From: Planctomycetota bacterium
GTDB lineage: Bacteria > Planctomycetota > Phycisphaerae > WQYP01
DNA length: 31,183 bases
Assembly: GCA_021809365.1 (NCBI GenBank)
Contig: JAKBAC010000025.1
Coordinates: 1 to 31,183 of the forward strand
Direction: 5' to 3'
The position numbers were made by a program, and so were the translations under genes. Below are positions 8,251 to 31,183 of this stretch, in pieces. The notes beneath the pieces were generated by a model. That model had not been told where the DNA came from, made no database searches, and saw only the letters and a list, made by a program, of their open reading frames with translations. Within the stretch, counting starts at the first letter, position 1, and each line of letters opens with the position of its first letter.

Positions 8251-8340
8251 AAAGATTCTCCTTGGCTTAACCGTCGCATCGGTACCAACGGCACCGGGCA
8301 CAACACACCGTGTCCAGCGCCTGACGTCATACATCGTTCA

Positions 8341-8717: not shown

Positions 8718-8753
8718 AAAAAAAGGGGCCACGCCGGATATCGGCGTGGCCCC
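8718..8753 (-). terminator. Intrinsic terminator of the MFS transporter gene
   Basis: A perfect 12-bp inverted repeat (GGGGCCACGCCG at 8725-8736 and its complement at 8742-8753) with a five-base loop is followed, on the minus strand, by seven T. It sits 33 bp past the stop of the transporter gene. Confidence 0.93.
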
Positions 8754-8786
8754 TGGCCCGTGCAGCTTGCTCCCCGTAAATACAGA

Positions 8787-10253: not shown

Positions 10254-10275
10254 GATGTCGTCTCCATGTATTTCT

Positions 10276-10300
10276 CGTCGGGTTGTGCCTCCACCCGACG
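10276..10300 (-). promoter_or_regulatory. Leader hairpin in the MFS transporter 5' UTR
   Basis: CGTCGGGT and ACCCGACG form a perfect eight-base stem around a nine-base loop that on the transcript contains GGAGG. It lies 22 bases before the ATG, just upstream of the GGAG used for initiation. A post-transcriptional role is possible but unproven. Confidence 0.45.
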
Positions 10301-10335
10301 CAGGTTTCAGCCAGCCAGACAATCCAGACCGGAGA

Positions 10336-10370
10336 TTTATACGATAGGCACTTTAGTATTGCGCTAAAGT
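10336..10370 (-). promoter_or_regulatory. Candidate promoter/operator of the MFS transporter
   Basis: Minus-strand TATAAA (10336-10341) could be a -10. At the -35 position lies a perfect seven-base inverted repeat, ACTTTAG and CTAAAGT separated by seven bases (10350-10370), which looks like an activator or repressor site. No good -35 hexamer is present, which would fit an activated promoter. Confidence 0.45.
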
Positions 10371-10477
10371 TGTGTGAAGATTTGATGAATGTTGTTCTAC
10401 GTGCCGAAAAGGCGACGATGTTCCGGAATATTGGGGCGATGGATTGGCCGCGCATTTTGGCTGCGGCGTGTCAGCAG

Positions 10478-13738: not shown

Positions 13739-13855
13739 GACAATTCCAGTCTCAAGTCCATGATCTCTTGGCGCAAATTGGAAAATCTCAATTGTTCACA
13801 TTCATAATCCGCAATTTGAAATCTCAGATGTCCCAATCGCGGATTGATCATGTTG

Positions 13856-15418: not shown

Positions 15419-15431
15419 CGCGCACCATAAA

Positions 15432-15475
15432 TTAGGTATTTGTTAGGTATACCATCATGGCGGTATTGGTGTCAA
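15432..15475 (-). promoter_or_regulatory. imuB promoter overlapped by a direct-repeat operator (candidate SOS box)
   Basis: On the minus strand TTGACA (15470-15475) is followed after 18 bases by TATACC (15446-15451). Overlapping and following the -10, the plus strand shows two identical TTAGGTAT units (15432-15439 and 15443-15450) with an 11-bp period. This is the period of the direct-repeat LexA box of alphaproteobacteria (GTTC-N7-GTTC). imuB/dnaE2 cassettes are normally LexA-controlled, so this is the natural candidate, but the sequence is not a known LexA consensus. Confidence 0.55.
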
Positions 15476-15551
15476 ATTTCCATGGCCGGTCCAAACAAGC
15501 TCGTGTTGATGTGGGCTATATGGAAGGGTCGCGGTTACCCCGGTGCGCTGC

Positions 15552-16667: not shown

Positions 16668-16705
16668 GATGCGATTCCTTTACGACGCATACACTCTTGC
16701 ATTCC

Positions 16706-16714
16706 ATTCTATCA
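16706..16714 (-). promoter_or_regulatory. Candidate extended -10 promoter of the sulfotransferase gene
   Basis: TGATAGAAT on the minus strand is an extended -10 (TGN plus TAGAAT, one mismatch to TATAAT), about 40 bases before the start codon. No convincing -35 is seen. Confidence 0.35.
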
Positions 16715-16797
16715 GAGCAATGCGGATGCCTCGCCTCGTGATGCATGCACACGATTCCGCTTTTGTCCGCACCGGCGCGCACACGGGTAGTGTGCGG

Positions 16798-16875
16798 TCA
16801 ACAAAACAGAAGGATCATAGCGATGGCTATCCAGACCTCAATAAGAGTAACCGCGCGTCGGATGATTGCTTTCAT
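16798..16875 (-). CDS. Possible 25-residue microprotein with a type IV prepilin-like signal
   Basis: ATG 16875 has AAGGA seven bases upstream, one of the better ribosome-binding sites in the window, and the frame closes with TGA after 25 codons. The peptide begins MKAIIRRA and continues VTLIEVWIAIAMILLF. This looks like the class III signal of prepilins and of planctomycete DUF1559 proteins: a short basic leader, a small residue at -1, Glu at +5 and a hydrophobic helix. No pilin body follows in this or the other frames. It may be a true small membrane peptide or the remnant of a pseudopilin gene cut by a stop. Confidence 0.35.
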   Translation of the reverse strand: MKAIIRRAVTLIEVWIAIAMILLFC

Positions 16876-17168
16876 GGCGAAATCCTTGCTGTTCCCAACG
16901 GAAATACATCCGTCTCAAGGTCTAACACGCACATGAGAATCGAATGTTACATGCTGTGACATTATTGGTACATGGTAAGCACTGTCGCTGCGGGTGACGA
17001 ACAACGGGGTAAACCGCAAAGAAGCACAAGAACGCAAAGGGGTGGCGACGACGACGGAATTAACCACAAAGACACGACGACACGAAGGGACGACGACGGT
17101 TGGCCACAGAGATCACAGAGGCCACAGAGGTTGAGGTGCAGACGACGGTATTTACCACAACGACACGC

Positions 17169-17200
17169 TTCAACGAAACGCTGCGCTTCAACGAGCAACG
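17169..17200 (+). repeat. Copy 1 of the AACGAAACGCTGCGC module
   Basis: TTCAACGAAACGCTGCGCTT continuing into CAACGAGCAACGA. Near-identical copies start at 17312 and about 17841 on this strand, and a diverged inverted copy lies at 8577-8623. Confidence 0.8.
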
Positions 17201-17311
17201 AGCAACGAACAACGGTGCGCGAAGGGGCGCGAGAGCGCAAAGGGATGACGACGACGACGGGTTTACCACAACGGCGTGAAGACACAAAGATACGACGATG
17301 GAACGACACGT

Positions 17312-17344
17312 TTCAACGAAACGCTGCGCTCAACGAGCAACGAA
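17312..17344 (+). repeat. Copy 2 of the AACGAAACGCTGCGC module
   Basis: It differs from copy 1 mainly by one missing T after GCTGCGC. It is followed by AACAGG, as in the 8.6-kb copy. Confidence 0.8.
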
Positions 17345-17449
17345 TAACAGGATTGAGCTGTCGCTGCGACGGCCAAGGTGCCCAAGATGCTCAAGTTCGG
17401 GGGCAAGATGCTCAAGTTAGGGGGGCAAGGTGCTCAAGTTGAGCATGTG

Positions 17450-17517
17450 GATGGGAGCGTTGATTTTAGCGGGTTTGGTTCAAGGTGCTCCAGATGCTCA
17501 AGATGTTTTAAAGGGGG
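17450..17517 (+). repeat. Long direct repeat, copy 1
   Basis: A module of about 68 bases beginning GATGGGAGCGTTGATTTTAG and ending AGATGTTTTAAAGGGGG. The copy 203 bp further on is about 90% identical. Confidence 0.85.
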
Positions 17518-17652
17518 TCGGTATTGAGCATTCAGGAGTCAGGAGATAGGAGGTGGACGAGGAGTTGGGAGTTAGGAGTTGGAAGACCTTGCGGATTTCA
17601 ACTTGCCCTAGATGCCCAAGTTAGGGGGCAACTTGCCCAAGTTGCGCAAGTT

Positions 17653-17720
17653 GATGGAAGCGTTGATTTTAGCGGGTTTGGTTCAAGGTGCCCTAGATGC
17701 CCAAGATGTTTTAAGGGGGG
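17653..17720 (+). repeat. Long direct repeat, copy 2
   Basis: It begins GATGGAAGCGTTGATTTTAG and ends AGATGTTTTAAGGGGGG. Differences from copy 1 are mostly C/T changes in GCTC/GCCC words. Both copies are embedded in AAGTTAGGGGGCAA-type words. Confidence 0.85.
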
Positions 17721-18045
17721 GGGCGGCTGCCGCCGAGAGCAGTGGAACAGGAGAAAGTTGAGCAGTAGAACACATACCGGCAGCGGGCAACGAACAACGA
17801 ACAACAGGGGGCGCGCGGAATGGGCGCGGGCTGTTGGCTACAACGAACAACGAAACGCTGCGCTTAACGAGCAACGAGTAACGAAACACTTGACACTCAA
17901 CGAGTAGCGAGCAACGCGCGCGGCTGTCGTTCAGGATTCTTTTCCGCGATCACTGTGGCGGCATGTTATTTACTTGTCAAACCCCGGCGGACCGGGATGC
18001 GGCACTTGTGCCGTGGAGAGGCTATAGGGGGCGGCGGGGGAGGGT

Positions 18046-18235
18046 AATGAGACATCAGGAGACAGGAGATAGGAGACAGGAGGCAGCCTCGTTTTCAGTG
18101 TTCAGTTTTCAGTTTTCAGTGTTCAGGAGACAGGAGATAGGAGATAGGAGACAGCCTCGTTTTCAGTGTTCAGTGTTCAGTGTTCAGTTTTCAGTGTTCA
18201 GGAGACAAGGAGTTAGGAGATAGGAGTTAGGAGAA
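18046..18235 (+). repeat. Tandem GACAGGAGATAGGAG / TTTTCAGTGTTCAG array
   Basis: A purine-rich GACAGGAGATAGGAG stretch, the linker GCAGCCTCG or ACAGCCTCG, and a TTTTCAGTGTTCAG stretch form a unit of roughly 75-95 bases, seen twice, then a third purine-rich stretch with GGAGTTAGGAGATAGGAG. Confidence 0.85.
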
Positions 18236-18409
18236 TAGCTGCAAGGAGAATTGCTGTCGGTTGCAGGGCGCGGAGCAGGCGAGCAGTAGAGAGTTGAGCT
18301 GTCGCTGCGGCGACGACGGCGGGTGTTATCTGGGAGGGCGGTTGTTTTCCGTCGCCGTTATTTTTTTGACTAATCACGTCCCCGTTGCGTTTCTTCGGCC
18401 AACGGTGCC

Positions 18410-21325
18410 TCACTGCTCGTCAATATCGTCGCTTAGCCCCAGCTCACGCAGGGCTGCCCGCGCTTCTTCCAGTCGCTGTTGAGAGACCCCGCCGTCCGGA
18501 TTAACCTCAACACTCACCGTCAACTTCAAACCGCCATCGGTAACGTGTCGGGAGAGAACCTTGGTATAGAAATTCATCCACTTCTGCGGCGGAACTTCGC
18601 CCGTCCAGTGAAACCCCATCTGCTTGGGTGCCGCCGCTTTCATCAGGGGCAACGCCCCCGCTTTGCTTACCGTAATCTCGGTCACAGCAACCAGATCGCC
18701 GACCTGCGCCTGCGCCGAAAAAATCCCCTCCAATGCTCCAGCGGTAAAGTTTCCCGCCGCCATTGCGCCTCCGCCGGCTGTCCAAATCACTGCCTCCTTC
18801 GCGACATCCATATTCCGGCCAAATTGATCCAGTCCCTGGACACGAAACAGCGCCTTTTGTCCCGGTTCAATGGCCGCACGAGGCGGCACGATAAGCAATT
18901 TCGCTAATCGCGGCGGCTCAATGTGCTTCTTGGCCTCTTCCGCCCGGATCACAAACATATCTTCGGATATTTCCACATCAGCGGCGGCCAATTCCTTCTC
19001 AAAAATAAACGGTTCATAATGGCCATCCGGCTTTCTACCCACATACGCCAGAATACCATCACGCACGCCGCGTGCGATGGTGTCCTTTATTGCGTCACCA
19101 TTCATTAACCGCGGCAACTGTGGGGACGCGAAAAACGCATCCCGCACAGCCTTGGTGCTCCACTGCTCCATCGCGGGCCAATTTCGCACCAGAAAGCTCG
19201 CGCTAATTTCCTTTTCAATATCTTCATACTCCCGCAGGCGGTTGATTATCACGCTAAGCAAATCCGGAGCCTGACTGGAGGTGATTAACCCCAAATCCAC
19301 GATCCGCAACTCGTTGGCCTTATCCAACAACAATACATTCTTGTAGCCGCGCCACACCGCCTCGAATAAATCCCGTTTCGAGCGCCGAATATGCTCGTCC
19401 AATTGACGCTGTTGGGCTTCATCCAGGCACGATACGTCTTGCTCTCTGATATCTTCCCACGCCAAGGCCTTGCGGGCTTCCTCGCGCAGCAACTGTGCTG
19501 ATTGCGCCACCGCCCAGATGACCGCACTTTTGAATGTCCGCGAAGATTTGCCATACTCCCGCGTCAGATCGGCGATCAACTGCCGCGTGGAATCGCCGTC
19601 GTCCAGAGTATGATCCAAACCCATAACAACCAACGTCAGCACCGGCCGATCCGGAATCTGGCCGCTTTTCTCCGGAAAATACACCCGTTCCGCACCGGCT
19701 CCTGCGGTGAAAACCTTTTGTATCTCTGTCCTGACACGCTCGTCAATCTGCGGCCCCTGAATGCTCGCCCGGCGATCGGAAAGGAGCTTATTAAGATTCG
19801 GTGACAGACTGAACCGATACCGGTTCTTATCAATAGACAGGTAATAACATGATTGCCCCAACGCCTCCAACACGGTTTCCACGTTCCCAATGTCCAGTTC
19901 CGGTTCACCCACCGCCAGTCTTATTTCCGGCACCGTGGCCTCGTGCCGCGCCATGCCGCCGTTGGATTCAAAGAAAATCGCCGTCGCCACCTTGGTATGC
20001 AACCGGGCTTTTTTAATTTCAACATCGGCCTCACGATCCAGCCGTTGCGCATGGGAATCCCGCTTCCCGCAGATATCCGTTGTCACAGCCCCTTCCAGTC
20101 GCGGCTCGCCAAGCTGCTCAAACATGGCCGTGCGAAACAACGATTCATCCAGCGGCGCTGTTCCTAATCCGATCAACGGGTCTTTATGGTCACCTTTGTA
20201 TCCATCCTGATACGCCCGCGATACCCACAACGCCAGCAGCCGCAACACCCCCCGCGTTTGCTGAAACCGGGGCAATGCCTGCCACTTGCGTTCAAATACC
20301 GACAACACCGTTGGATGAAATGGATACGCCGCCCTGAATGCTTCCCGCGCGTGATCCACCGGAAAATCCCCGATCTGGGTTTTATTGTCCAATATCCAAT
20401 CGACATATTGCGCGATGGTCTTCTCGGCCTCTTTGGTCATGCCGTCCCAATCAAATAAGCGTCGGCGAATAATTTCCGAGGCTTCCCCTTCACTGGACAT
20501 AATCACGGCCTTACCCAGCCGATCCAGCATTTTCTTGAAGCGGTCATAATCCGACTGGTCTTCCGCGCTCATTTCCAATTCCGAGGCCGGGATGGATGCG
20601 ACCAGTACTGTGTTATCCTGCCCGCGCACGGTCTCTGAAAGATTATGCAGAAAGTTGTAAAGCTGGCTGGCCAAACCGCTTTTCCGGTACCGGCTGACAA
20701 AATTCATCAGCTCATCCATGAGAATCAGACATGGTTTATCCGTGGGCAAGAGCCGCCGGATCACGTCGCCGGAGGGTGCGGTCAGCTTTTTATCATGCTC
20801 CGCCACGATGGCGAACGCCTCCGCGCCGCCAAGTTGCCAGGCAATTTCACCCCATGGCGTTTTACGCAATGGCGTGCCATCATTGCCACCACGCCCGGAT
20901 ATCGCATCAAATTCTGTGCCGACAAAAACCGCTGTCGCCGCCACCGGCACACCGCTTACCCCCGCTTTCGCCACAACGCTGTCCACACCCAACCACGCGG
21001 TTGCCTCCGGCCCGCCCCGCGCCAGATGATAAAGCAGCGTCAGCGCATGTGTTTTTCCACCGCCGAACTGCGTGGTCATATTAAACACCGCTGACGTTTC
21101 AGTCTTAATGCCCGAAAGCCGCCGCACCACTTGTGCCGCCAGATCAATGAGGTTTTTGGTCAGATAGGTGCGGCCAAAAAATCGCTGCGGGTTCTGATAA
21201 TCCGCCGGTGCCCGGCCATCGCGTACATGATCCAGATGTACCGCAAATTCCGAAGCATCCAGCGGCTTACCATCGCGCAGGTCTTCACGGGGAATAATGA
21301 CTTTGTACCAAGGTTGTAAGGCCAT
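18410..21325 (-). CDS. DUF499 family P-loop ATPase, anti-phage associated
   Basis: A 971-residue cytosolic ATPase. Walker A is QFGGGKTHALTLLYHLARGG (about 86-105, core GGGKTH) and Walker B is CLILMDELMNFVS (about 199-211). Both are in the form typical of DUF499 proteins, which also share the N-terminal start PWYKVIIPREDLRDG and the early FFGRTYLTKNL. DUF499 proteins occur next to DUF1156 methylases and large helicases in defence islands, and the same arrangement is seen here. The C-terminal 200 residues look like beta-rich binding modules (VPPRAAIEPGQKALFRVQG). ATG 21325 has GGAGA six to seven bases upstream. It is the last gene of the operon, 227 bp after the AlbA_2 gene, so it may also have its own promoter. 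Its substrate and role in immunity are unknown. Confidence 0.88.
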   Translation of the reverse strand: MALQPWYKVIIPREDLRDGKPLDASEFAVHLDHVRDGRAPADYQNPQRFFGRTYLTKNLIDLAAQVVRRLSGIKTETSAVFNMTTQFGGGKTHALTLLYHLARGGPEATAWLGVDSVVAKAGVSGVPVAATAVFVGTEFDAISGRGGNDGTPLRKTPWGEIAWQLGGAEAFAIVAEHDKKLTAPSGDVIRRLLPTDKPCLILMDELMNFVSRYRKSGLASQLYNFLHNLSETVRGQDNTVLVASIPASELEMSAEDQSDYDRFKKMLDRLGKAVIMSSEGEASEIIRRRLFDWDGMTKEAEKTIAQYVDWILDNKTQIGDFPVDHAREAFRAAYPFHPTVLSVFERKWQALPRFQQTRGVLRLLALWVSRAYQDGYKGDHKDPLIGLGTAPLDESLFRTAMFEQLGEPRLEGAVTTDICGKRDSHAQRLDREADVEIKKARLHTKVATAIFFESNGGMARHEATVPEIRLAVGEPELDIGNVETVLEALGQSCYYLSIDKNRYRFSLSPNLNKLLSDRRASIQGPQIDERVRTEIQKVFTAGAGAERVYFPEKSGQIPDRPVLTLVVMGLDHTLDDGDSTRQLIADLTREYGKSSRTFKSAVIWAVAQSAQLLREEARKALAWEDIREQDVSCLDEAQQRQLDEHIRRSKRDLFEAVWRGYKNVLLLDKANELRIVDLGLITSSQAPDLLSVIINRLREYEDIEKEISASFLVRNWPAMEQWSTKAVRDAFFASPQLPRLMNGDAIKDTIARGVRDGILAYVGRKPDGHYEPFIFEKELAAADVEISEDMFVIRAEEAKKHIEPPRLAKLLIVPPRAAIEPGQKALFRVQGLDQFGRNMDVAKEAVIWTAGGGAMAAGNFTAGALEGIFSAQAQVGDLVAVTEITVSKAGALPLMKAAAPKQMGFHWTGEVPPQKWMNFYTKVLSRHVTDGGLKLTVSVEVNPDGGVSQQRLEEARAALRELGLSDDIDEQ

Positions 21326-21347
21326 TTCAATCTCCAATAATCGCACG

Positions 21348-21399
21348 AAACGCACGGCGTGCGTTTTCGATTTCAGCCGTGCGTTTTATCCGTGCGTTT
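21348..21399. repeat. Iterated CGTGCGTTT motif before the DUF499 gene
   Basis: On the plus strand CGTGCGTTT occurs at 21358-21366, 21378-21386 and 21391-21399. An inverted AAACGCACG at 21348-21356 makes a 19-base perfect palindrome around one central base. It lies 23-75 bases before the DUF499 start. It could be an operator or one more short-repeat word. Confidence 0.6.
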
Positions 21400-21421
21400 C
21401 CACTTAGCGTGACGCATGCAA

Positions 21422-21447
21422 TGCACATAACCAGCACATAAGATTTA
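21422..21447. repeat. 26-bp direct repeat, copy 1
   Basis: Starts TGCACATAAC and ends AAGATTTA. Identical to the copy at 21530-21555, 108 bp away. Within it, on the minus strand, TTATGTGC occurs twice with an 11-bp period. Confidence 0.9.
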
Positions 21448-21529
21448 CCCCGAATTTCCTATTAAAATTCCGAAAACAATCAGTTTCCGGCAGTCGCTTT
21501 CCCAAAACCGTCGATTACCGACCCCATTT

Positions 21530-21555
21530 TGCACATAACCAGCACATAAGATTTA
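21530..21555. repeat. 26-bp direct repeat, copy 2
   Basis: Identical to 21422-21447. Its last three bases are the TAA stop codon of the AlbA_2 gene, so one copy touches coding sequence and the other lies in the spacer before DUF499. Confidence 0.9.
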
Positions 21556-23001
21556 GGCCCAAAAAGGAACGTATTTTGCATGCTTTCTTGACTTACTATC
21601 GGGATCCGCAAGTTTTATCAACCCTGCCTTTACCGTATCACGAATAATACGGGATGCCAAGGGATAGTCCTCCTCCGCGATATTAAATCTTTCTCGGAGC
21701 GTCGTGTTCGTCATGACCCTGTTCGACACAAACAGCAAACAACTGTGAAGATAGCAGGCCCGTTCTTTATCCCGTCCATCCATCCTCGAAAGAACGCGGT
21801 GGGCAAATAAGAGAACACGGGTGTGCGTGGTATCCGTGCGAACATCCGGCGCGGGCAACTGGAAGAACTCGATCTCGTGGACAACCTTGTCGAACCCGCT
21901 GCCTCGCTCTTCACAAATACCGAGGCGGCGCATCAGATCGGCCAATATCTCGTTGCGAGAACGAGGTGAATGGTCGAGAAACCTCAACGGATCGATCAAT
22001 GGCAGGCCGGGATTGCTAATTTCTATCCGGTCATCAAACAGCTCGATCATCGGCCCTGTCCCGGAAATGTTAAAATCCTGATGAATCATCGCGTTGGCGA
22101 CCAACTCACGAATGGCCCTTTCCGGATACATGCGTATCTCCCGCCGCAGAGACTGGCCCAGAACTTCATTGCGCGGAAATTGGTCGTTGATATAACCGAC
22201 CAAATCGGCAAATCCAGCCGCGTAACCCCTGGATTCGCTTTTTTCGTGCTCTGGCTCCACTCTGCCGCCGCCCCGATATCGGATGACGCGGAAAGCCTTC
22301 CGGCTTAGATCAGGAAACTCAGAGAGCTGTCTGGCGAACAGGATCGCGCCCAAATTGGTTATATCAAAAATATCGCCTCCCTTCGCCACGATCAACCGGT
22401 CCACCGCCAGTCGATCCAGAATCCCGGCCCGGTTCGTCGGAAGGGTTTGCCCCGCGAGCTCGAAAAACTTCGTGTAGTCGAGATGTGCCAGCGTGTCATC
22501 GCCCCTAACGTCGCCCATCGCAATTCCCATCTCAAAGCTTGCGCGGCGTAGCTTGTGCCAAAGTTCCCTCTCCTTTCCGGGGTAATCTTTCAGCTTCTTC
22601 TTGCAACTTCCGATACGGATCCACTCGGTTCCCCTGAAAGCAACGGGTGCGCTGATTGCGGGACGAATCAGCAGAAGAATCATCCGCCGTGCCTGATATT
22701 CGCACTCGCTGAACTTAAAATCGACGTGCGGTGAAAGGCAGCGGGCGAGCCAGTTCTCAAGTTCCTCGTTGCCCACTTTGGTTTCGCGTGGATTTACTGT
22801 TGTGCCCACCACTTCCTTGGTCACATCCTCCACCCCCCAAAGAATATATCCGGCTTCCTTGCCGTGCAGGGCTGCAGAATTCGAGATCGCCGAAATATAC
22901 TCTCCGATTTCATCCGGGGCGTCGTTGTTGCGCTTAAACTCTAACCACTCGGTTTCGGTTGGCAGACTCAGGAGCGAAGTTATGATTTGCTGCTCATTCA
23001 T
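21553..23001 (-). CDS. Schlafen AlbA_2 / GHKL-like ATP-binding protein (RecG-like C-terminus)
   Basis: A 482-residue protein. The N-terminal third is an AlbA_2 domain: TETEWLEFKRN (about 15-25), YISAISNSAALHGKEAGYILWGVED in two adjoining pieces, and the basic SCKKKLKDYPGKE. The middle and C-terminal part has the HATPase_c_4 signature YPERAIRELVANAMIHQDF, then GTGPMIELFDDRIEISNPG and LADLMRRLGICEERGSGFD. A winged-helix-like end follows. This architecture is often annotated as an ATP-binding or transcriptional-regulator protein and is frequent in defence islands. ATG 23001 overlaps the methylase stop in ATGA, so an upstream-extended start within the methylase is unlikely. It may be an accessory effector or regulator of the system; which one cannot be read. 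Confidence 0.85.
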   Translation of the reverse strand: MNEQQIITSLLSLPTETEWLEFKRNNDAPDEIGEYISAISNSAALHGKEAGYILWGVEDVTKEVVGTTVNPRETKVGNEELENWLARCLSPHVDFKFSECEYQARRMILLLIRPAISAPVAFRGTEWIRIGSCKKKLKDYPGKERELWHKLRRASFEMGIAMGDVRGDDTLAHLDYTKFFELAGQTLPTNRAGILDRLAVDRLIVAKGGDIFDITNLGAILFARQLSEFPDLSRKAFRVIRYRGGGRVEPEHEKSESRGYAAGFADLVGYINDQFPRNEVLGQSLRREIRMYPERAIRELVANAMIHQDFNISGTGPMIELFDDRIEISNPGLPLIDPLRFLDHSPRSRNEILADLMRRLGICEERGSGFDKVVHEIEFFQLPAPDVRTDTTHTRVLLFAHRVLSRMDGRDKERACYLHSCLLFVSNRVMTNTTLRERFNIAEEDYPLASRIIRDTVKAGLIKLADPDSKSRKHAKYVPFWA

Positions 23002-26000
23002 AGCCCCAACCCTTTCTTCCGCGCCAATACGCCGTCCACCCATCTTTTTTCATCAGTCCCCACAGGATAAAGCGCGGAGAGCGATTGGGCCAACTTCCAG
23101 AACTTACCGTCCCGCCCGGCCCCCTCTTCCACCAGAAATCGCTTCACCGCTTCGCCCCGCCCGGCGGCAAATAATATCATGCTCTGATGCACACGATCCA
23201 GCACGGTGTGGCCCAGCTTCGGCACACTTTTGTCACCCCAACCGCCATCTTCATTCTCCAGTTCATCAATGCCGGCAAACAAATTGGCCTGCCGGGCTTT
23301 CTTCCGGGCTTTCTGCGGCACCTGCCCCTCATCTTTGCCAAATAATATCCGCGTGCGCTCCGCCACGGCCAAAAGCCGCGCTTTATCCCCTTTCACCTCC
23401 ACCACATCCGCCATCTGCTCCAGATTCGCCCCCAATCCCTGCGCAATTTTCCGCGCGGCATCATATTCCAGCGTATAGCCGGTTTTATTCGCCCCCGCCT
23501 TGCCGGTGCTATCCTCGGCGTCGTCCTCAGCATCGCCTTCCCCATCACTGCGTTCCCCGTCAGGCTGATCGTTGTCCGTTGAGCGTTGTTCGTTGCCAAC
23601 ACCCATTGTCCAAAGCCATATCGCCGTGAGCCGCGCATCGGCTTCCAGCGCTCCCGCATCCGCCCCGCTGAATACCAGCCGCAGCGCCTCCTGTGCCACC
23701 GCCGCCCACACATGCTCCAGATATTCGCGCAGCGTTACCTTTTCCCCATTGGCTTTTTCCACGCGGCTATAGCGGGAGAAGATTTCCAGCGCCGGGCCGA
23801 GACATGCGAAAATAGCGTCCGCCCCCACCACGCCCTCCGCCTCCAGCCGCGGCATCCACTGGTGGATGCGTTGTGGCAGTTCCTGCAAAACCGTCCGCCA
23901 ATCACCAACGGCATCCGTGCGCACACTGCCATCACCATTTTCCCGTGGCCGGCAAACCAGATGCACGCTGCTGGCCAGCGCCGCGGAATCGCGTGCGCGC
24001 ATCCGCGCGGCCCGCTCCGTGTCGATAGGCCACGAACCGGTGATAATCCAACCCGCGTCAACCATGGCTTGTAATTGCGCCTCCCATCCACTGGTTGATT
24101 TATGGGCAAACACGACGATTCCAACACCATATGGATGAAGAATCCGCCGACCTTCGGCCATTGCCGCCGCCATGGTTTTTTCGAAATAGGCCTTATCCTT
24201 TCCCTTGATTTCATCGACGATGCACTCGTCAGCCTTCGGAACCAATTCACCGCTGAACCCATCCGCAAGCAATGCAGGCAGCGTACGTTTCAGCCAGACA
24301 TAAAAGAAATCCGAAAGATCGGCGTAAGGGACAGCATCATAATATGGCGGGTCCGTCACGAAGGCCGAAACGATGTCGTCGGGAAGCGGATGCTTTGCGG
24401 CACCGGCGATTTCGACGTGTGCAGTCGGCACTGACGAATCGGTGATGTGCTCGCAGACCCTGGCGACCCAGCTAACGGCACCGCCCCAATCTCCGCCGGA
24501 TCCCGCATTAATCTGTGGCTCGACGAAATCCCAGGCAATTGGGAGCGCCTGCCGTCCAAACGTGTGCGTAACAACCTCGATTGTCGAGGCCCACGCGACG
24601 AGGCTTGATGACTGGTCAGCCATTCGGGAAACCGCGCACGACAGCCCCGTTTGCACCGCCGCTGCCAATTCGATTCCATTCCCGTTTTTGAGTATCTCTC
24701 CCGCCTCGCGCACGAGCCGGCTCAGCGTGGTCAGCGCAAGGGCCTGACGGGGTGTAAATAAATCGCACCACTGTTCCATGCCATAAAGCTGCACACGAAA
24801 TCCGAGCGTCCCCTGCGGCGGCAAGGGTTCTTCCGGCACCAGCGAAAGCGGGCCGGTATGTTCTTTTCGCCGCTTTTCCAATTCCTTCGCCGCCGCCGCC
24901 GTGGCCCGCAAATCCCGCTCGTTGGGCAAACGGTAAAACCGCCCCTGCTGGTCTGCCCGTGTTGTCACCACCGCAAACAGCCGCGCATCGGCAGCCCCGC
25001 CCTTGCGGGCTTTCAACTGCACCCGCACCGATGCCACCGGCGTGGTGTAACCGCAGCACGGGCAGGTGGCCGAGCCGCGGGCCACCGTGCCCCCGCCAAC
25101 TTCTTTGTCGCTCCTGGGTTCGAAAATTTCAAATTCAAGGTGCGGCGGGTGCGCCGCTCCCTGGCGGTCGCGGGTTACGTCGATGGCGCTTTCCGCTTCC
25201 TGACGGTCGCGGCTCGGAATATCACAATTCGGATTGTCGCCATGAATTATTTTGTAACGTAAGGCACATTTTTTGTTGGCCTTTTTGGCCAGCCACAGTG
25301 ACCGCATCAGTGGAACCTCGGCACCGCAGTTCGGCCCTTCGCATTGAATCGTCCGCGCCCACAAATACGCGATGGGCGTTGCGCCATCGGGATCCTTGGG
25401 ATAATATTCAGAGAGTTCTTTTTCCGCCCGCTCTTTTATCCATTGCCCCCACTTCCGCACTTCATCGGCCAATTGCCGGCCATATTTGGGAATGTATTCC
25501 AACACCACCTTGTTCAGCAGCACCGCCACCGGATTGAGATCACTGGCAAACGCATCAGCCCCCACGCGCAGCGCCTCCAGCGGAATTGACCCGCCACCGG
25601 CAAACGGGTCCACCACCAGTGGCCGCGTACCCGGCGCTCCGCCCAAACTTTCATGTGCCGCCTGCGTGAGTGCCCGCGCGGTGGACAGAAAAATCTTTTG
25701 GGTAGATGCCTCCCAGGCCGCAAAATCCGCAATGAAGTCCAGCAGCAGCACGCGCAGCAGCTCCAGGTCCGTGGGTGTGGCCGGTGGCGGATCGCCGTTG
25801 CGGCGGGGTACTGGCAGCGTAACTAAATCCAGCGCGGTCTGGCGTTTGGCCAGTTCCCCATAGCGTTTCCATGATTCGGGATCACACGTTTCCGTGGCCT
25901 TGGAATCAGCCAGAACGGCCTTGGCAAATGCAACCATCGCATCCGCCGCCGCCCGGCGAAATGTCGGCGGACAAAGCGGATCAGCGGGATCAGGCCAAAG

Positions 26001-26168
26001 CGAAGCACAAATCACCGCCCGGCACGCGGCCAGCGGTCGCCGCGCCCACCAGATATGCAACGTGGAAATATGCCCATGCCGAATCGACTTCTCCCGCCGC
26101 GCTTGGGCCGAGATACGCTTAATGGGCAAATCCACTTCGATAAGGCGTTGGGGATAGGTGTTGGTCAT
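22998..26168 (-). CDS. DUF1156 DNA methylase, anti-phage associated
   Basis: A 1056-residue DNA methyltransferase. It opens with the DUF1156 motif (RLIEVDLPIKRIS at 8-20, then HISTLHIWWARRPLAACRA at 33-51). The SAM-binding site is VVDPFAGGGSIPLEALR (185-201), and the catalytic motif is FVTDPPYYDAVPY (603-615), indicating amino (N6-adenine or N4-cytosine) methylation. Cys276/281 and Cys369/371/372 (TARGSATCPCCGY-like) probably form a zinc ribbon. DUF1156 methylases pair with DUF499 ATPases and helicases in anti-phage loci, as here. ATG 26168 overlaps the preceding stop in ATGA. Two stretches look inserted: about 315-340 with two DRQ words and an acidic linker about 855-895 whose DNA contains the genome's AACGAACAACG repeat. 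Confidence 0.93.
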   Translation of the reverse strand: MTNTYPQRLIEVDLPIKRISAQARREKSIRHGHISTLHIWWARRPLAACRAVICASLWPDPADPLCPPTFRRAAADAMVAFAKAVLADSKATETCDPESWKRYGELAKRQTALDLVTLPVPRRNGDPPPATPTDLELLRVLLLDFIADFAAWEASTQKIFLSTARALTQAAHESLGGAPGTRPLVVDPFAGGGSIPLEALRVGADAFASDLNPVAVLLNKVVLEYIPKYGRQLADEVRKWGQWIKERAEKELSEYYPKDPDGATPIAYLWARTIQCEGPNCGAEVPLMRSLWLAKKANKKCALRYKIIHGDNPNCDIPSRDRQEAESAIDVTRDRQGAAHPPHLEFEIFEPRSDKEVGGGTVARGSATCPCCGYTTPVASVRVQLKARKGGAADARLFAVVTTRADQQGRFYRLPNERDLRATAAAAKELEKRRKEHTGPLSLVPEEPLPPQGTLGFRVQLYGMEQWCDLFTPRQALALTTLSRLVREAGEILKNGNGIELAAAVQTGLSCAVSRMADQSSSLVAWASTIEVVTHTFGRQALPIAWDFVEPQINAGSGGDWGGAVSWVARVCEHITDSSVPTAHVEIAGAAKHPLPDDIVSAFVTDPPYYDAVPYADLSDFFYVWLKRTLPALLADGFSGELVPKADECIVDEIKGKDKAYFEKTMAAAMAEGRRILHPYGVGIVVFAHKSTSGWEAQLQAMVDAGWIITGSWPIDTERAARMRARDSAALASSVHLVCRPRENGDGSVRTDAVGDWRTVLQELPQRIHQWMPRLEAEGVVGADAIFACLGPALEIFSRYSRVEKANGEKVTLREYLEHVWAAVAQEALRLVFSGADAGALEADARLTAIWLWTMGVGNEQRSTDNDQPDGERSDGEGDAEDDAEDSTGKAGANKTGYTLEYDAARKIAQGLGANLEQMADVVEVKGDKARLLAVAERTRILFGKDEGQVPQKARKKARQANLFAGIDELENEDGGWGDKSVPKLGHTVLDRVHQSMILFAAGRGEAVKRFLVEEGAGRDGKFWKLAQSLSALYPVGTDEKRWVDGVLARKKGLGL
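23566..23602 (-). repeat. AACGAACAACG repeat inside the methylase gene
   Basis: On the minus strand GGCAACGAACAACGCTCAAC continuing to GGACAACGATC matches the repeat words of the 17-kb block and the 8.6-kb spacer. In frame it encodes GNEQRSTDNDQ in a low-complexity acidic linker. Confidence 0.7.
25156..25216 (-). repeat. Paired CCGYCAGG-type repeat inside the methylase gene
   Basis: On the plus strand CTCCCTGGCGGTCGCGG and TTCCTGACGGTCGCGGCTCG occur within about 60 bases. They encode the two DRQ words (SRDRQEAES and TRDRQGAAH) between the two halves of the putative zinc ribbon. Confidence 0.55.
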
Positions 26169-27523
26169 TGTTTCACCACCACAACATTATCCACATCCGC
26201 TTTGAGCCACCCGGATTCGTTGAGCAGGATGTTCCTAAAATCTTCCTTTGTTTTTCTACCCCGCTCCACGAGATCCGCGAAGCGCAGTAAATCCAGCGTG
26301 CGGATCAGCAGTACCTTGTCTTGGACAGCCTTTTCGATGATCTCGGAATTTGGCGGCTGATCCTTGCCACCCAACGACTCTGCGGAACGGAAGGTATTGA
26401 CAATGGCGATGCCGGGAACCGTTGCCGACAGCCCAAGCCGCTCCCGATGGTCATCAACCTGATTGACCAGTTTCCGGTCAAAATTCCCGTTGATCCCCTT
26501 AATTTCGATTACCGCCAGAATCCTTCCATCCGCACCGCGCAGTGTTGCGTCCTCGACTTTCCTGGAATCATCAATGTCTAAGTTGAGGCCGAAAAAGTGA
26601 TCCATGATCTTCCCAATCGCTTCCACCAGCGGATCGGATTGCAAGCAAAGGGCGGCCTTGAAATCTTGGTAAGCCGAGACTTTTGTTTCGAGACTCTCAA
26701 ATTGCTTTCGGTGCCCTTCCGCTTCTACCTTCATGTCTTTTTCTCTGTTAAACGCAAACTCGGCAACCCACTCGGGAATCTCTCGTGAAACCCGTTTGCG
26801 ATAGGCGATGGCGGCGGCGACGGAGGCAGAGGCCATTTCAACTGCCTGTCGATGGGTCTGTGGGTGAGCACATGGAAGAAAAAATATCTTGTCAGAAAGG
26901 ACCAATCCAAAAACCGCTTTGCCGGTACCGCACACAACCGCAATGCGACTTGAATTTCCACGCGGCGGTGCCATGCCCACGTATCCTGCTCCGTATTTGT
27001 CTATGTATTCGCTGAATTCGGGAATAGCGCTTTGAAGCGCGGGATGCGGTTCCGAGTCGCTCCGCCAGGAGATGTCCAGTTTGGAAGTGACCCTCCTGAA
27101 AAGGTCGCTTGTCGTGCCGCCGCTCCAAAGGGCGGTAGGGTCAGGAAGAAATGGCAGCAAAAAAATAAACGGATGGCCTTGCCCGACCATCGTAAAGAAC
27201 TGGCGTTCACGCTGATCGAGATCGGCAGTATTTACACATTGCGAGACCCTTCCGACCGGCGAAGGAACCAATTCTTCAAATGCGCCGGCGAAAACGACAA
27301 CGCCGTCATAAGCCTGAAAGGCCACACCTGCTCCCATCGGCTCATTGTGCAGATCAAAACCATCCTCGGAATGAACACGTCGAGCTACATCACTATTGGC
27401 CCTCGGAAGTCCGTATGCAAGGAATTTCAATGGCCTGGCCTGCGGGGGTGCCGGCAGCGCCGGCACCGCCTGGTGAGCATCCGTGGTCCGTTGCGGCTTT
27501 CCTTGTTTCTGATTAAACATCAT
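26165..27523 (-). CDS. Putative PD-(D/E)XK nuclease-like protein (452 aa), unrecognised family
   Basis: I do not recognise the family. The C-terminal half carries a restriction-endonuclease-like signature: Asp325 in KVEDATLRG, a 14-residue hairpin-length gap, then VIEIKGING with Glu340 and Lys342, followed by LVNQVDDHRERLG. Near the end LLIRTLDLLRFADLVE resembles the last strand and helix of that fold. The N-terminal half has no recognised motif. The start is uncertain: ATG 27523 or 27520 lie just after AAGGTG, while an upstream ATG at 27634 would add an Arg-rich, non-conserved-looking stretch and overlap the previous gene by 17 bases. The stop overlaps the methylase ATG (ATGA). A role as a nuclease of the defence system is inference. 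Confidence 0.75.
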   Translation of the reverse strand: MMFNQKQGKPQRTTDAHQAVPALPAPPQARPLKFLAYGLPRANSDVARRVHSEDGFDLHNEPMGAGVAFQAYDGVVVFAGAFEELVPSPVGRVSQCVNTADLDQRERQFFTMVGQGHPFIFLLPFLPDPTALWSGGTTSDLFRRVTSKLDISWRSDSEPHPALQSAIPEFSEYIDKYGAGYVGMAPPRGNSSRIAVVCGTGKAVFGLVLSDKIFFLPCAHPQTHRQAVEMASASVAAAIAYRKRVSREIPEWVAEFAFNREKDMKVEAEGHRKQFESLETKVSAYQDFKAALCLQSDPLVEAIGKIMDHFFGLNLDIDDSRKVEDATLRGADGRILAVIEIKGINGNFDRKLVNQVDDHRERLGLSATVPGIAIVNTFRSAESLGGKDQPPNSEIIEKAVQDKVLLIRTLDLLRFADLVERGRKTKEDFRNILLNESGWLKADVDNVVVVKQ

Positions 27524-27617
27524 CACCTTACCGAAACAGCGCCGTACCAGAGTTGGCCGCCCGCCAACGCGGCCTGTGTGCCGCTCCCAGTACCCGCGCT
27601 CTGCCTTCGCAACCCGT

Positions 27618-28769
27618 TCACGCCGCACCTTCATCTTCCGGAAAAAGTGTGCCCTGCCGATTGTCGTTCCAGCTTTCGTCAATCTCGCCGCGCAGTGCCT
27701 CGATAACCTCCGCTTTTGTCGCGTCGTCCGCAAGCGTCACGACTATATCGCCTGGTGGGGCTGGCACATTGGTGGCGAGAGCCTCCGATTTTGCCATCCC
27801 GATTCTCTGACGGATCAGATCACGGGCATTTCTTCGCAGAAATTTCTTCTCCTCATTATTTTCCCAGCGCTCAAAATGCCCCAGAGTCGCGTGGCAGAGT
27901 GCCTCATCAACCCGCAGGTTAACGACGGCGGGTACTGTCGCCGGGCCGATCTGCATTACCACCCATGCCAGTATCCGGTTGCCAAAGAGTCGCTTTGCAG
28001 GCGCGTCAGAACTCGCGCCGCCACGCGGAATCCAGGGGATAATATACATGGGGCGGGGGTCGAAATTGGCGCCGGCGGTTTGCTGAACCCGCCACGATTG
28101 CGGTTTGGACGAGCCGGGAATCCAAGGAGGATGCGGTTGTTTCGTCTTAAGTTTCCGCGCCCGCATGACAATCCACCCGCCCTTAACCTCCAACGCGAAC
28201 GCCGCCAAACCGGCGGTTGCGAATCCGGATTTGTGAAGCCCTTCCTTGATAGACTCAACACCTCTGGTCTGATCGGCCCGGCCGTTGGACGGAAAGACGT
28301 AGGCGACCACCGCGTCCTTAACGCCTGTGGGTTTAAGTGCCAAGGCTCCGGAAAGCACACCAGGTTCATTAAGCAAAAGCCCTCCGGCCTGTCGCTGAGG
28401 CCGAAGGTGATCCACTGGTTGGCCGCTGCCATCACCAAAAAGAGACTTCTTGCATTCTACAACGGCAAATTCATCGGAATCGGTTTTCATGACGACATCC
28501 GGGCGCGGAGAGTCGCTCACTTCTACACCGCTTTTTCTTAATTTTTCGCGAAGCTCCAAGGGCAGCGGCAGTGATGGCTCGATTGCGTACAACTTAAAGC
28601 CCGCGTCCCAGAATATGGGTTTAACCATTATGGAGATCGAGGCTGTATTTGTATCCCGCTGTTTGGAAGTTTTGCGCGCCTTGCCGCGCGATGGAGGTGC
28701 CGGTTGAAGCATCCAGAGCACGAGATTGAGTTGGTAAAGTTCATCCCCGATCAATGTCTCGAAGTTCAT
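27618..28769 (-). CDS. Putative PD-(D/E)XK nuclease-like protein (383 aa), unrecognised family
   Basis: Not recognised by family. Residues 90-107 read PDVVMKTDSDEFAVVECK, with Asp91, Glu105 and Lys107 in the spacing and strand context of a PD-(D/E)XK active site. Before it, residues 50-85 could supply the first helix. Residues 190-215 (GGWIVMRARKLK) and 235-250 (DPRPMYIIPWIPRGG) are well-formed strands. The Lys/Arg-rich stretch at 28-38 may contact nucleic acid. ATG 28767-28769 overlaps the stop of the upstream gene as ATGA. The combination with the downstream D...ExK protein suggests two different nucleases or one nuclease and one structural homologue. No specific function can be named. Confidence 0.78.
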   Translation of the reverse strand: MNFETLIGDELYQLNLVLWMLQPAPPSRGKARKTSKQRDTNTASISIMVKPIFWDAGFKLYAIEPSLPLPLELREKLRKSGVEVSDSPRPDVVMKTDSDEFAVVECKKSLFGDGSGQPVDHLRPQRQAGGLLLNEPGVLSGALALKPTGVKDAVVAYVFPSNGRADQTRGVESIKEGLHKSGFATAGLAAFALEVKGGWIVMRARKLKTKQPHPPWIPGSSKPQSWRVQQTAGANFDPRPMYIIPWIPRGGASSDAPAKRLFGNRILAWVVMQIGPATVPAVVNLRVDEALCHATLGHFERWENNEEKKFLRRNARDLIRQRIGMAKSEALATNVPAPPGDIVVTLADDATKAEVIEALRGEIDESWNDNRQGTLFPEDEGAA

Positions 28770-30010
28770 TGGATCGCTCCCTCACCGTCAGCTGACCTGG
28801 TTGCGAGAAGGTCGTCATATCGCCGATCCCCGACCCAAACCTCCACCGCCGGATCAAGGTACTGCTGCACATTGGTCACCAGCCGGTTGATCGTGTTTCC
28901 GCAAGTACCTTCCGGGACGATAGCCACCAACTGCTTCTCGGTGATCTCCAGAAACAGGGGTTGCCAGATATGGCGGTCAACTGCGTAGACATGCACCTTT
29001 GTCTGTCCAAGCCACACCGGATCGCCCCATAATCCAAAGCGACTATGCATTCGGTTGAATGTGGCGTGAATAAACGTTTTAAACGTAGATTGGCTCAACG
29101 CCTCCTGGAAAACCAGATAGACCGGGGCACCGAGGAGTTCCCTTTTTTCTCCGGCGGTGGACATGCTGGTGCGCTCCAGGCTACCCCAGGCCGCCTTCTC
29201 CGTTAATTCGGTAGCCATTTTGTAGCGGCCAAGAACAAACTCCACATGTTGGCGGTGGTCCTTAAAGCTGTCGCTGCGGTTTGTCACCTTGCCGTTGAAA
29301 AAGAAATCATGGCCGCCGCGGCCCGTGGCCGGGAAGCGTAACTGCGCAATGGCGTTGAGCGGCTGGTAGAGACCACGCATCTTTGGAAGGATCTTTTCCA
29401 GAACGCTCAGCCGTTCAACAATCGTTGTTTTAGTGGATCGGCGCTCGACCACCGGTTGATCCCCGTCATCACGAATGCGTACGCTTGTATCCGAATCAGC
29501 CTGGCCGGATTCCAAGTCTCCGTATTCGCCGGATTCGTAGACATTGGCGTATTGGAATACCATGCGCCCATAACGGTGCTTAGGCGTATTGCCGAGGATA
29601 AATTTAAAAAGATCCGCGAACGCCCGCCCGCTGATCCACAGGCGATCCAGCATTGCATTTTGTTGGACTAAGTTCTTCACGAACCGGTCAGCAATGTACG
29701 AGTCTTCAAGGCTGTAGAAAACCGGGTAGCGCGGCAGCAGTTTCTCGACCAACCCGATTACCCGCTTCTCACGCTGGTCGAACGCCCGGAAAAGTGTTTC
29801 ATCTATCGCAGTGAGGGTTACGCCGACAGCGGCAAACAATCCATCAACCGAGGGCTCAGTCACATGAGCCGGAACTGTCTCCAACATATACGTCTTGAGC
29901 AGCGGACGGCCAGTCTTTTGATCGTTGGCGAGCTCATCCTGCCGCTCGGATGAATATCCATCCAAGGCCTGTATCGCCTCCTCGCGTGTTTTGACGTTAT
30001 CCAGCGTCAC
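28766..30010 (-). CDS. Unrecognised 414-residue protein of the defence operon
   Basis: No family or catalytic motif recognised. It starts at GTG 30010, supported by GGAG eight bases upstream. There is no signal peptide or membrane segment. The first 130 residues look helical and charged (EEAIQALDGYSSERQDELAND). A charged, probably disordered stretch about 160-190 (YESGEYGDLESGQADSD) separates this from a more globular half with LRFPATGRGGHDFFF, GAPVYLVFQEAL and FGLWGDPVWLGQTKVHVYAVDRHIW. The order, direction and ATGA coupling to the next gene show it belongs to the operon. It could be a sensor, adaptor or non-enzymatic subunit; nothing seen favours one. Confidence 0.8.
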   Translation of the reverse strand: MTLDNVKTREEAIQALDGYSSERQDELANDQKTGRPLLKTYMLETVPAHVTEPSVDGLFAAVGVTLTAIDETLFRAFDQREKRVIGLVEKLLPRYPVFYSLEDSYIADRFVKNLVQQNAMLDRLWISGRAFADLFKFILGNTPKHRYGRMVFQYANVYESGEYGDLESGQADSDTSVRIRDDGDQPVVERRSTKTTIVERLSVLEKILPKMRGLYQPLNAIAQLRFPATGRGGHDFFFNGKVTNRSDSFKDHRQHVEFVLGRYKMATELTEKAAWGSLERTSMSTAGEKRELLGAPVYLVFQEALSQSTFKTFIHATFNRMHSRFGLWGDPVWLGQTKVHVYAVDRHIWQPLFLEITEKQLVAIVPEGTCGNTINRLVTNVQQYLDPAVEVWVGDRRYDDLLATRSADGEGAIQ

Positions 30011-30183
30011 GAGCCTGACTCCAATGCAAAAAACGGCCTACAGGTTTCGCCAGCGGGGACCCCGCACTACTGGCCATTACCACCCGGTTTCCGCCGATGT
30101 ATTTTCTGGCCAACGGGCACGAGGACATTGTACAATAAATGGGCACACGGGCGAACATCCCATTGCCCGCCACTGCGGCCAAA
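30011..30183. other. Short spacer between the helicase-like gene and the rest of the operon
   Basis: 173 bases with no convincing gene. It contains the palindrome GCGGGGACCCCGC (30053-30065), no T-run that would make a terminator, and no strong promoter. Read-through transcription is likely. Confidence 0.5.
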
Positions 30184-31183
30184 TTATTTCCCCTCCGCCC
30201 CCAATATCGCCGCCGCCGGCGCGGAGTAATGCTCCACCGCCATGACTTCGCGCCAGCCTAACCGGGCTGGATCACGTATTACATGCACTTCCGGCTTGCT
30301 GCCGCAGTTATACACCACGTACAGCCAATAATCATGTTTCAGCCGCGCCGCGGTCTTGTATTCATTGCTGCTTAATGCTATCTCACCGATGCCGCTGCGG
30401 CCCTTCACTTCGATAAATCGCACTTCAACAGCTGTAGCGGCGTCCTCCGGATGGGGTTTACGCGAAATTAAATCAAATCCGCGATCCTGCGTTTCCACGC
30501 TTTCCACATTCCGGCCCTGCGCTTTTTCATAGGCCGTCACCGTTTCCACCGCGATGCGCTCAATATCATCATCCCGCACCATCGCCGCCATGCCGGGGTT
30601 CGCCCGTTCCGGGTGCGGCAGTACCCACGCCGCGCCAACAAATTGAATACCACCAATGGCACATTGATGTTCCTGATCCAGTTCCCGCAGGCGGTTTTCC
30701 AGACGGTGGTTCAGGTCTTCAATACGGTCAGCGGCCTGCTTGATATTTCCCGCCAGTTGCGGTGATTTATCCCCGTTTTGCTGCTGTTCCGATAGCCGGG
30801 CAAAGGTCAGGTTCTGCCGGTGTATAAGCTCATTGAGGCTGATGTTGACGTGCTGGCGCACAACCTCAATTTCCCTTTGTCGGCCAGCGACGGTCTCTTC
30901 CAGAAAGCCCTTGAGTTCGCGCTCCATCAGCGCCCGTTCGAGGTCCAACCGCGTTGGCAAACCGCTGCTCGAGGGTGCTTGTGTCCCTTCCGGTGCCGGT
31001 GATAAATCCAAAAAAACAGTGGGCTGCCTGATGGCAATGGTGCCCTGCGCATCGCTGTAGACCGCAAAAAGTCGCCGATGCAGTTGATTACCGCGTCCAT
31101 CCTTGATGGACGCGGAAAACACATCCAGTCGGTACGGTACCGAGTGATGCAAATCGTAAAAAACCGCCCCGCAAAACAGTTCA
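30184..31183 (-). CDS. C-terminal part of a large protein with a DUF3883-like domain, probably the SNF2-type helicase of the system
   Basis: The frame is open to the right edge; 332 codons plus the stop are in the window. The visible part is not a whole protein: an ATG is lacking at its apparent beginning (a TTG would be needed) and in-frame coding sequence continues upstream (ELFCGAVFYDL). A beta-rich segment with PTVFLDLSPAPEG is followed by a long coiled-coil-like helix pair (residues rich in E, R, L, Q) and a terminal DUF3883-like domain: DRGFDLISRK, then VRFIEVKGRSGIGEIALSSNEY and DYWLYVVYNC, which has a D...ExK restriction-nuclease-like pattern. DUF3883 tails are typical of large SNF2/HepA-type helicases in defence islands. 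The helicase motifs must lie outside the window, so the helicase call is inference. Confidence 0.75.
   Translation of the reverse strand, partial: ELFCGAVFYDLHHSVPYRLDVFSASIKDGRGNQLHRRLFAVYSDAQGTIAIRQPTVFLDLSPAPEGTQAPSSSGLPTRLDLERALMERELKGFLEETVAGRQREIEVVRQHVNISLNELIHRQNLTFARLSEQQQNGDKSPQLAGNIKQAADRIEDLNHRLENRLRELDQEHQCAIGGIQFVGAAWVLPHPERANPGMAAMVRDDDIERIAVETVTAYEKAQGRNVESVETQDRGFDLISRKPHPEDAATAVEVRFIEVKGRSGIGEIALSSNEYKTAARLKHDYWLYVVYNCGSKPEVHVIRDPARLGWREVMAVEHYSAPAAAILGAEGK

Follow-up and report, generated by a model that had tools for sequence, protein, structure and literature searches.

Positions 1 to 31,183 of the 46-kb contig JAKBAC010000025.1 of a Planctomycetota bacterium (Phycisphaerae, assembly GCA_021809365.1) were analysed; we call this stretch the window. 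It carries an anti-phage operon of the Hma type, and three further genes lie between the helicase and the methylase of its core. They encode a protein of 414 amino acids (aa), a protein of 383 aa and a third protein. In an earlier sequence-only reading of this DNA the three genes had been taken as one coherent insert that marks an undescribed Hma subtype. Our results confirm the inserted genes but do not support them as one Hma subtype. The 414/383-aa pair, named the cassette here, is a candidate for an unnamed defence system of its own rather than a special part of the Hma operon. Every gene of the locus is on the minus strand, and the order of transcription is helicase, 414-aa gene, 383-aa gene, third gene, DUF1156 methylase, SLFN/HATPase gene and DUF499 ATPase. 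The features are as follows.

30184..31182, minus strand: C-terminal part (332 residues) of an HmaA-type SNF2 helicase with a NOV_C/PD-(D/E)XK tail; the gene is truncated by the window end
27597..30189: slot A; a ShosTA/PsyrTA-like pair takes its place in the sister operon L003
28766..30010, minus strand: 414-aa gene, cassette gene 1; tandem TBP/CENP-L-like predicted fold (weak match)
27618..28769, minus strand: 383-aa PD-(D/E)XK gene, cassette gene 2; motif P90-D91...E105-C-K107...Q127
26165..27523, minus strand: third gene; N-terminal GATase/ThuA/IFT52-like fold and C-terminal FokI-like nuclease domain (predicted)
22998..26168, minus strand: HmaB-type DUF1156 adenine methyltransferase (PADLOC, Pfam)
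21409..22986: slot B; a TIR-effector gene takes its place in L003
21553..23043, minus strand: SLFN_AlbA_2 and HATPase_c_4 gene (Pfam); probable start at 23001
18410..21355, minus strand: HmaC-type DUF499 ATPase (PADLOC, Pfam); the ATG at 21325 is the start better supported by L003

The three inserted open reading frames (ORFs) between the helicase tail and the methylase were found as previously described, at 28766-30010, 27618-28769 and 26165-27733. They had all been said to be joined to the core by ATGA overlaps. Such overlaps are present between the 414-aa and the 383-aa gene (28766-28769) and between the third gene and the methylase (26165-26168), whereas 173 bp separate the helicase from the 414-aa gene. 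The frame of the third gene is open up to 27733 and contains candidate ATG codons at 27634, 27523 and 27520. Since close homologs begin with 'M(M)FN/LN', the start is most likely at 27523 or 27520, judged from the sequence. This leaves a gap of about 94 bp after the 383-aa gene and therefore no ATGA coupling at this junction. The SLFN/HATPase gene (21553-23043) had gone unmentioned in the sequence-only reading. Its start at 23043 is probably too early because the in-frame ATG at 23001 makes an ATGA overlap with the methylase stop.

The core of the operon

The core genes were compared with the PADLOC, Pfam and NCBIfam libraries, the helicase by its C-terminal part since the window cuts the gene. 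The helicase tail matched HmaA of PADLOC with an E value of 7e-23 (profile positions 849-1138 of 1176) and the Pfam domain NOV_C (DUF3883) with 6e-22, and its residues D247 and E258-x-K260 are kept in 3/3 aligned helicases. The orthologue in L003, which is 88% identical over the tail, contains SNF2 and Helicase_C domains and matched HmaA with an E value of 2e-191. The methylase matched HmaB (PDLC00661, 1.4e-129) and DUF1156 (3e-22), and the ATPase matched HmaC (PDLC00662, 7e-119) and DUF499 (6e-26). The NCBIfam equivalog models for antiphage DUF1156 and DUF499 proteins also matched, far below their curated cut-offs. Both the Hma-type core and the DUF3883 tail of the large protein had thus been recognised correctly.

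The name Hma comes from PMC8565338. In PMC12839542, Hma is placed among the DUF499-centred BREX-Related (BR) systems, where Type-1 BR has a helicase with an active C-terminal PD-(D/E)XK domain, Type-2 BR adds DUF3780 and Type-3 BR adds PglZ. By its sequence the core of the window fits Type-1 BR, with a predicted activity of the NOV_C domain. Among the 7 operon proteins encoded inside the window there was no Pfam match to DUF3780 at E<=1 and no PADLOC or Pfam match to PglZ. The sequence-only reading had expected a DUF3780 accessory; its absence is in line with the core type, since DUF3780 marks Type-2 BR and not Type-1 BR.

Occurrence of the cassette outside Hma operons

None of the three inserted proteins matched a known defence family, as had been supposed: neither the cassette proteins nor the third protein had a match in PADLOC (2023 library), NCBIfam or the local Pfam library. 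The 414-aa protein had been called an unrecognised orphan, which holds for these named families but not for its relatives. It has 521 homologs at E<=1e-3, the best 120 of which all carry the label PF25924 (known from precomputed annotation and not contained in the Pfam library used), and it matched phrog_22469, a family of unknown function, with an E value of 6e-14. The PHROGs search gave nothing convincing for the 383-aa protein, which has at least 4 close homologs, or for the third protein. The 414-aa family was found in 1/392 Planctomycetota whole genomes, and in 0/247 and 0/245 genomes of two other phyla, which were searched without a positive control.

Outside the window, the genomic context of the 414-aa family was available for seven loci:

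L009 and L010: IMG/VR contigs
L013: Metabacillus plasmid
L014: Lysinibacillus plasmid
L015/L023: planctomycete contig
L018: Methanocaldococcus jannaschii plasmid
L019: Halobacterium plasmid

The hosts of the cassette thus include Euryarchaeota, Bacillota and Planctomycetota. The family profile matched all seven loci with E values from 1e-153 (L023) down to 1e-19 (L014). In 7/8 loci (the window and six others) the next gene on the same strand overlaps the gene of the 414-aa family. When the 383-aa family profile was run against the 701 ORFs of the 7 sources, these overlapping partners gave the best score in each locus, the weakest being that of L014 (E 0.15). Because four partners were part of this profile, leave-one-out profiles were required for a fair test. 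They gave E values of 1.5e-15 for the window, 6e-19, 3e-37, 6e-47, 1.6e-7 (L018), 1.1e-3 (L019) and 0.02 (L014). The partners share the motif P-D/E-V/I ... E/D-C-K ... Q, and P-D/E...E/D-x-K is present in 5/6 partners from the other loci. In the L014 partner a D...E-I-K run was noted by eye, and the alignments do not place it.

The profiles of the helicase, the methylase, the ATPase and the third gene had no match in the examined stretches of L009, L010, L013, L014, L018/L025, L019 and L023. As a positive control, the same profiles did find their targets in the window, in L003 and in L001. The pair therefore lives without an Hma core nearby, and this was observed in six loci other than the window. 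PADLOC scans of ten cassette proteins from the outside loci revealed no confident family.

Among plasmid records the window 414-aa protein matched only those of Metabacillus and Lysinibacillus. The two archaeal plasmids were reached with the Metabacillus protein, and the family profile also matches them directly. The window 383-aa protein and the third protein had no match among plasmids, and phage records contained no match for the 414-aa protein. In viral contigs the 414-aa family was confined to L009, with a remnant, and L010, with a full locus; a broader alignment gave the same two, and searches with a single 414-aa sequence or with the 383-aa family confirmed nothing. In a tblastn search among plasmids, the partner genes of L013 and L018 found only themselves, whereas their 414-aa homologs found each other.

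The neighbours of the cassette point to defence in two loci. In L014 the neighbour on the opposite strand (6479-8995) is the candidate defence helicase PDC-S28 (E 3e-282). In L018 (1308-9985) the cassette is part of a small defence island that also comprises genes for an EVE-domain protein, an OLD/AriA/GajA-like ATPase and a toxin-antitoxin pair of the VapC type. A PemK/MazF-like toxin gene is located upstream of the cassette in L010 (7348-8055) and in L013 (11048-11764); in L010 a transposase-like ORF, identified by eye, lies between the two.

Replacement of genes in a sister operon

The planctomycete locus L003 carries a sister operon. The helicase tail is 88%, the ATPase 89%, the methylase 81.5% and the third protein 53% identical to those of the window. 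The methylase identity is uneven: residues ~300-360 and 480-600 are at 28-48%, two other segments of 60 residues at 63-65% and most others at 85-100%.

In L003 the place of the cassette, upstream of the third gene, is taken by a phosphoribosyltransferase-like gene (Pfam score just below the cut-off) and a DprA gene. PADLOC assigned this pair to PsyrT (9e-8) and to PsyrA (1e-57) or ShosA (4e-42). After the methylase, L003 has a TIR-effector gene in place of the Schlafen gene of the window, followed by a copy of the ATPase leader, an AbiLi/PDC-M38A ATPase gene and the DUF499 gene. The AbiLi-like gene is inserted at window position 21326-21338, just upstream of the DUF499 start (L003 15503-15572, and 17015 on), and separates the DUF499 ATPase from its conserved leader. 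The DNA similarity of the two operons breaks sharply at window positions 30190/27596 for slot A, 22987/21408 for slot B and 21339/21325 for the AbiLi-like insert. The five similar stretches had local scores of 98, 77, 92, 120 and 42, compared with a maximum of 27 after shuffling, which was done for one stretch.

To see how common the insert is, the HmaB regions of Planctomycetota were surveyed. An HmaB-like match at E<=1e-30 was present in 49/382 genomes, where scoring was limited to two candidates for each genome. Twenty regions were taken from 20 of the 49 genomes, from the top of the list and with G003 excluded. The three insert genes are all absent from these 20 regions, several of which lack the helicase side or have it rearranged. 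By a hand tally, helicase, methylase and ATPase are in order in 13 regions, whereas the other 7 run into a contig end, have an undetected core gene or show a rearrangement. Of the 13 ordered regions, 9 have one or more ORFs of >=90 aa on the same strand between helicase and methylase. The ORFs scanned there encode OLD-type ATPases with or without TOPRIM, Abi_C and SLFN-HATPase proteins, and others of no family. Homologs of all three insert proteins (P0004, P0124 and P0134) lie on contigs of equal size (344,468 bp), and the homologs P0003 and P0129 have nearby accessions and also lie on contigs of equal size. Judged from these contig sizes and accessions, the three genes appear to recur together in close relatives.

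The third gene

The third gene is found beside Hma cores in some planctomycetes and elsewhere alone. In L001 it is present and the cassette is absent. Four of its 5 distant relatives (26-29% identity) have no core genes in the examined stretch. Solitary relatives with 28-29% identity occur in Thermodesulfovibrionia (L004, 9968-11266) and Gottesmanbacteria (L005, 9962-11266), where no core gene was found in ~20 kb; they might represent a nuclease system made of a single gene. In planctomycetes the third gene is associated with the core more closely than the cassette is, yet it also lives alone. The supposed co-occurrence of the insert with the core was accordingly seen for the third gene in several planctomycetes, whereas the cassette is mostly found apart.

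Predicted folds and nuclease motifs

A model of the third protein showed a C-terminus that matches FokI and an N-terminus that folds like amidotransferase, ThuA and IFT52 proteins. The residues D362, E377 and K379 are kept in 35/35 aligned sequences. An active class-I glutamine amidotransferase would need a catalytic cysteine and histidine. Before residue 300 no cysteine or histidine is invariant, but the cysteine at column 235 is conserved in 30 of the 35 sequences, that at 255 in 29 and that at 133 in 28, and the best histidine column in 25. A likeness to carbamoyl phosphate synthetase was rejected; the top Foldseek rows had an E value of 2e-4, but the root-mean-square deviation (rmsd) was ~17 and the whole-chain overlays were poor. 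No homology was found between the two PD-(D/E)XK proteins, the 383-aa and the third protein, with a probability of 1% in the profile comparison. The sequence-only reading was therefore right that the insert holds two different proteins of this type and that, with the helicase's own domain, the operon has three nuclease-like signatures.

The AlphaFold2 model of the 414-aa protein, built from 29 sequences, had a mean predicted local distance difference test score (pLDDT) of 81 and a predicted template modelling score (pTM) of 0.82. Foldseek found nothing at E<=1e-3 in the PDB, the top rows being CENP-L chains (2.5e-3) and RnlA, and nothing at E<=1e-3 in a viral fold library. In the VIA comparison, which covers the families in the fold lists searched, the first 270 residues scored 8.5 with CENP-L (rmsd 4.6, 194 aligned), 7.0 with Iml3, 6.3 with CENP-N and 6.2 with RdgC. 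Residues 276-404 scored 5-7 with TATA-binding protein (TBP), AdoMetDC and spermine synthase. The tool itself warns that unrelated proteins often reach best values of 7-8, and the TBP/CENP-L-like match is therefore a lead only. On this lead from the model, the 414-aa protein may be a tandem TBP-like protein, possibly one that binds DNA. PDB sequence profiles gave nothing convincing for any of the three insert families.

Surroundings of the operon

Directly 3' of the DUF499 gene, about 1.5 kb of the window (16700-18300) consists of short intergenic repeat mosaics. A 97-nt unit is present twice (17421-17517 and 17624-17720); L003 has a 76-77% match to it at 3781-3903, upstream of its operon. Scans for promoters and terminators yielded about as many hits as shuffled sequence did (6 versus a mean of 6.4, and 20 versus 16.3), and no Rfam match was found within the window. 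At positions 2-16667 Pfam matches were obtained for the IMS domain of an ImuB-like gene and for a sulfotransferase. The other genes of this part we take to be ArsA-like, ArsD-like, an MFS transporter and DnaE2-like. With these assignments, an arsenic gene group and an ImuB/DnaE2 pair adjoin the defence operon.

Interpretation

The Hma/Type-1 BR operon probably has two internal junctions that serve as cargo slots for independent defence modules, with a cassette in slot A that would be an autonomous module, carried elsewhere by plasmids and other replicons. The subtype proposed by the sequence-only reading was not supported, given the 0/20 HmaB regions, the pair without a core in six loci and the ShosTA/PsyrTA-like pair in the same slot of L003. 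More tentatively, and with somewhat less than even confidence, the 414/383-aa pair could be a two-gene defence system in its own right, so far undescribed and shared by archaea and bacteria. Its TBP/CENP-L-like protein would bind DNA and guide the fast-evolving nuclease of the PD-(D/E)XK type, and Hma/BR operons could be exchange platforms that take up complete systems at two fixed internal sites. Several points weigh against these readings. The replacement of the slots was seen in a single sister pair, the fold match of the 414-aa protein is weak, and in the viral contig L009 (297-1403) a 145-aa remnant of the 414-aa family stands directly before a Type II methyltransferase gene and has no partner.

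Alternatively, the pair might act in abortive infection or in the manner of a toxin-antitoxin system, with the 383-aa nuclease directed at the host and held in check by the 414-aa protein. We regard this as rather unlikely, but it is the strongest rival because a ShosTA-like pair occupies the same slot. ShosTA and PsyrTA are toxin-antitoxin systems, in L010 and L013 the pair has a PemK/MazF-like gene upstream of it, and the 383-aa family evolves faster than its 414-aa partner, as the plasmid tblastn with L013 and L018 indicated. However, slot neighbours need not share a mechanism, PD-(D/E)XK proteins are equally common in restriction, and the 414-aa protein showed no fold known from antitoxins. 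A different role was considered for the third gene, as a sequence-specific restriction partner of HmaB that co-varies with the target-recognition region of the methylase. Its ATGA overlap with the methylase fits this proposal, as does the joint divergence of the third protein and of the two methylase stretches between window and L003, where the helicase tail and the ATPase remain at 88-89%. This divergence comes from one operon pair, though, and the diverged stretches are only presumed to be the target-recognition region. With an amidotransferase/ThuA/IFT52-like N-terminus in place of a DNA-recognition domain, and with 4/8 loci of third-protein relatives lacking an adjoining methylase, we find the proposal doubtful. 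That the three genes code for subunits specific to a separate Hma subtype, forming a modification and multi-nuclease restriction complex, is improbable. The tight packing with two ATGA overlaps and the recurrence of the three-gene set in close relatives (P0004, P0124, P0134; P0003/P0129) speak for it. Against it, the three genes are missing from all 20 surveyed HmaB regions, L003 has other cargo beside a retained core and third gene, and the cassette genes occur in six other loci without a profile-detected Hma core.

For the cargo-slot reading, we infer a mechanism from the folds and motifs. The methylase would mark self DNA, and the ATPase together with the helicase-NOV_C protein would form the primary restriction complex acting on invader DNA. 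The 414-aa protein may bind DNA or its partner and would position or license the 383-aa nuclease. The third protein, with its N-terminus as a putative sensor, could be a ligand-gated back-up nuclease. Cassette and third protein would thus add further, separately triggered nucleases to the core in a layered action.

An apparent operon subtype thereby becomes two more general and testable statements. One concerns a cassette that is found on plasmids of M. jannaschii, a haloarchaeon and Bacillaceae and in a planctomycete, is absent from the 2023 PADLOC library, and has a first protein whose fold may be one that is otherwise described for kinetochore and TATA-binding proteins. The other is that whole defence modules seem to be exchanged at fixed internal junctions of Hma/BR operons while the core stays nearly identical; annotating the insides of such operons as core subunits will therefore mislead. 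The third protein adds a predicted FokI-like nuclease behind an amidotransferase-like fold. Neither the cassette nor this protein was mentioned in the titles and abstract openings of the literature found, which leaves preprints and supplements largely uncovered, so that a prior naming is possible.

Comparison with known systems

The folds of CENP-L/Iml3, CENP-N, RdgC and TBP are weak matches of the 414-aa model and may or may not be related to it; no PDB sequence matches its family profile, and its context is a prokaryotic two-gene one. TOTE conflict systems combine TBP, TPR and OB components, of which a weakly matched TBP-like fold alone was seen here; TBPs of such systems are mentioned in PMC12458937. 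FokI and R.BspD6I share the fold and the D...D/E-x-K site with the C-terminal domain of the third protein. They differ in the N-terminus, which is amidotransferase-like in the third protein and a winged-helix DNA-binding array in FokI. ShosTA/PsyrTA is, like the cassette, a two-gene module in the same slot, but its phosphoribosyltransferase and DprA-like proteins are unrelated to the 414/383-aa pair.

With Hma/Type-1 BR the window shares the order HmaA-HmaB-HmaC, the PD-(D/E)XK helicase tail, the DUF1156 methylase and the DUF499 ATPase. Neither the cassette nor the protein with amidotransferase-like fold and FokI-like domain is named in the sections and passages of PMC12839542 that were consulted, and the words 'ShosTA' and 'amidotransferase' do not occur in its main text, to which the search was limited. 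Extra nucleases as such are not new, because PMC12839542 describes auxiliary nucleases inside BREX/BR loci, including Schlafen and minimal histidine kinase proteins. The slot B gene agrees with the SLFN_AlbA_2 and HATPase_c_4 auxiliaries of these loci in its domain make-up; the described Schlafen auxiliary has a C-terminal winged helix-turn-helix, for which the window gene had no confident Pfam match. In conclusion, the core is known and nested auxiliaries are a described trend, and the cassette is the part of the operon that is most likely new.

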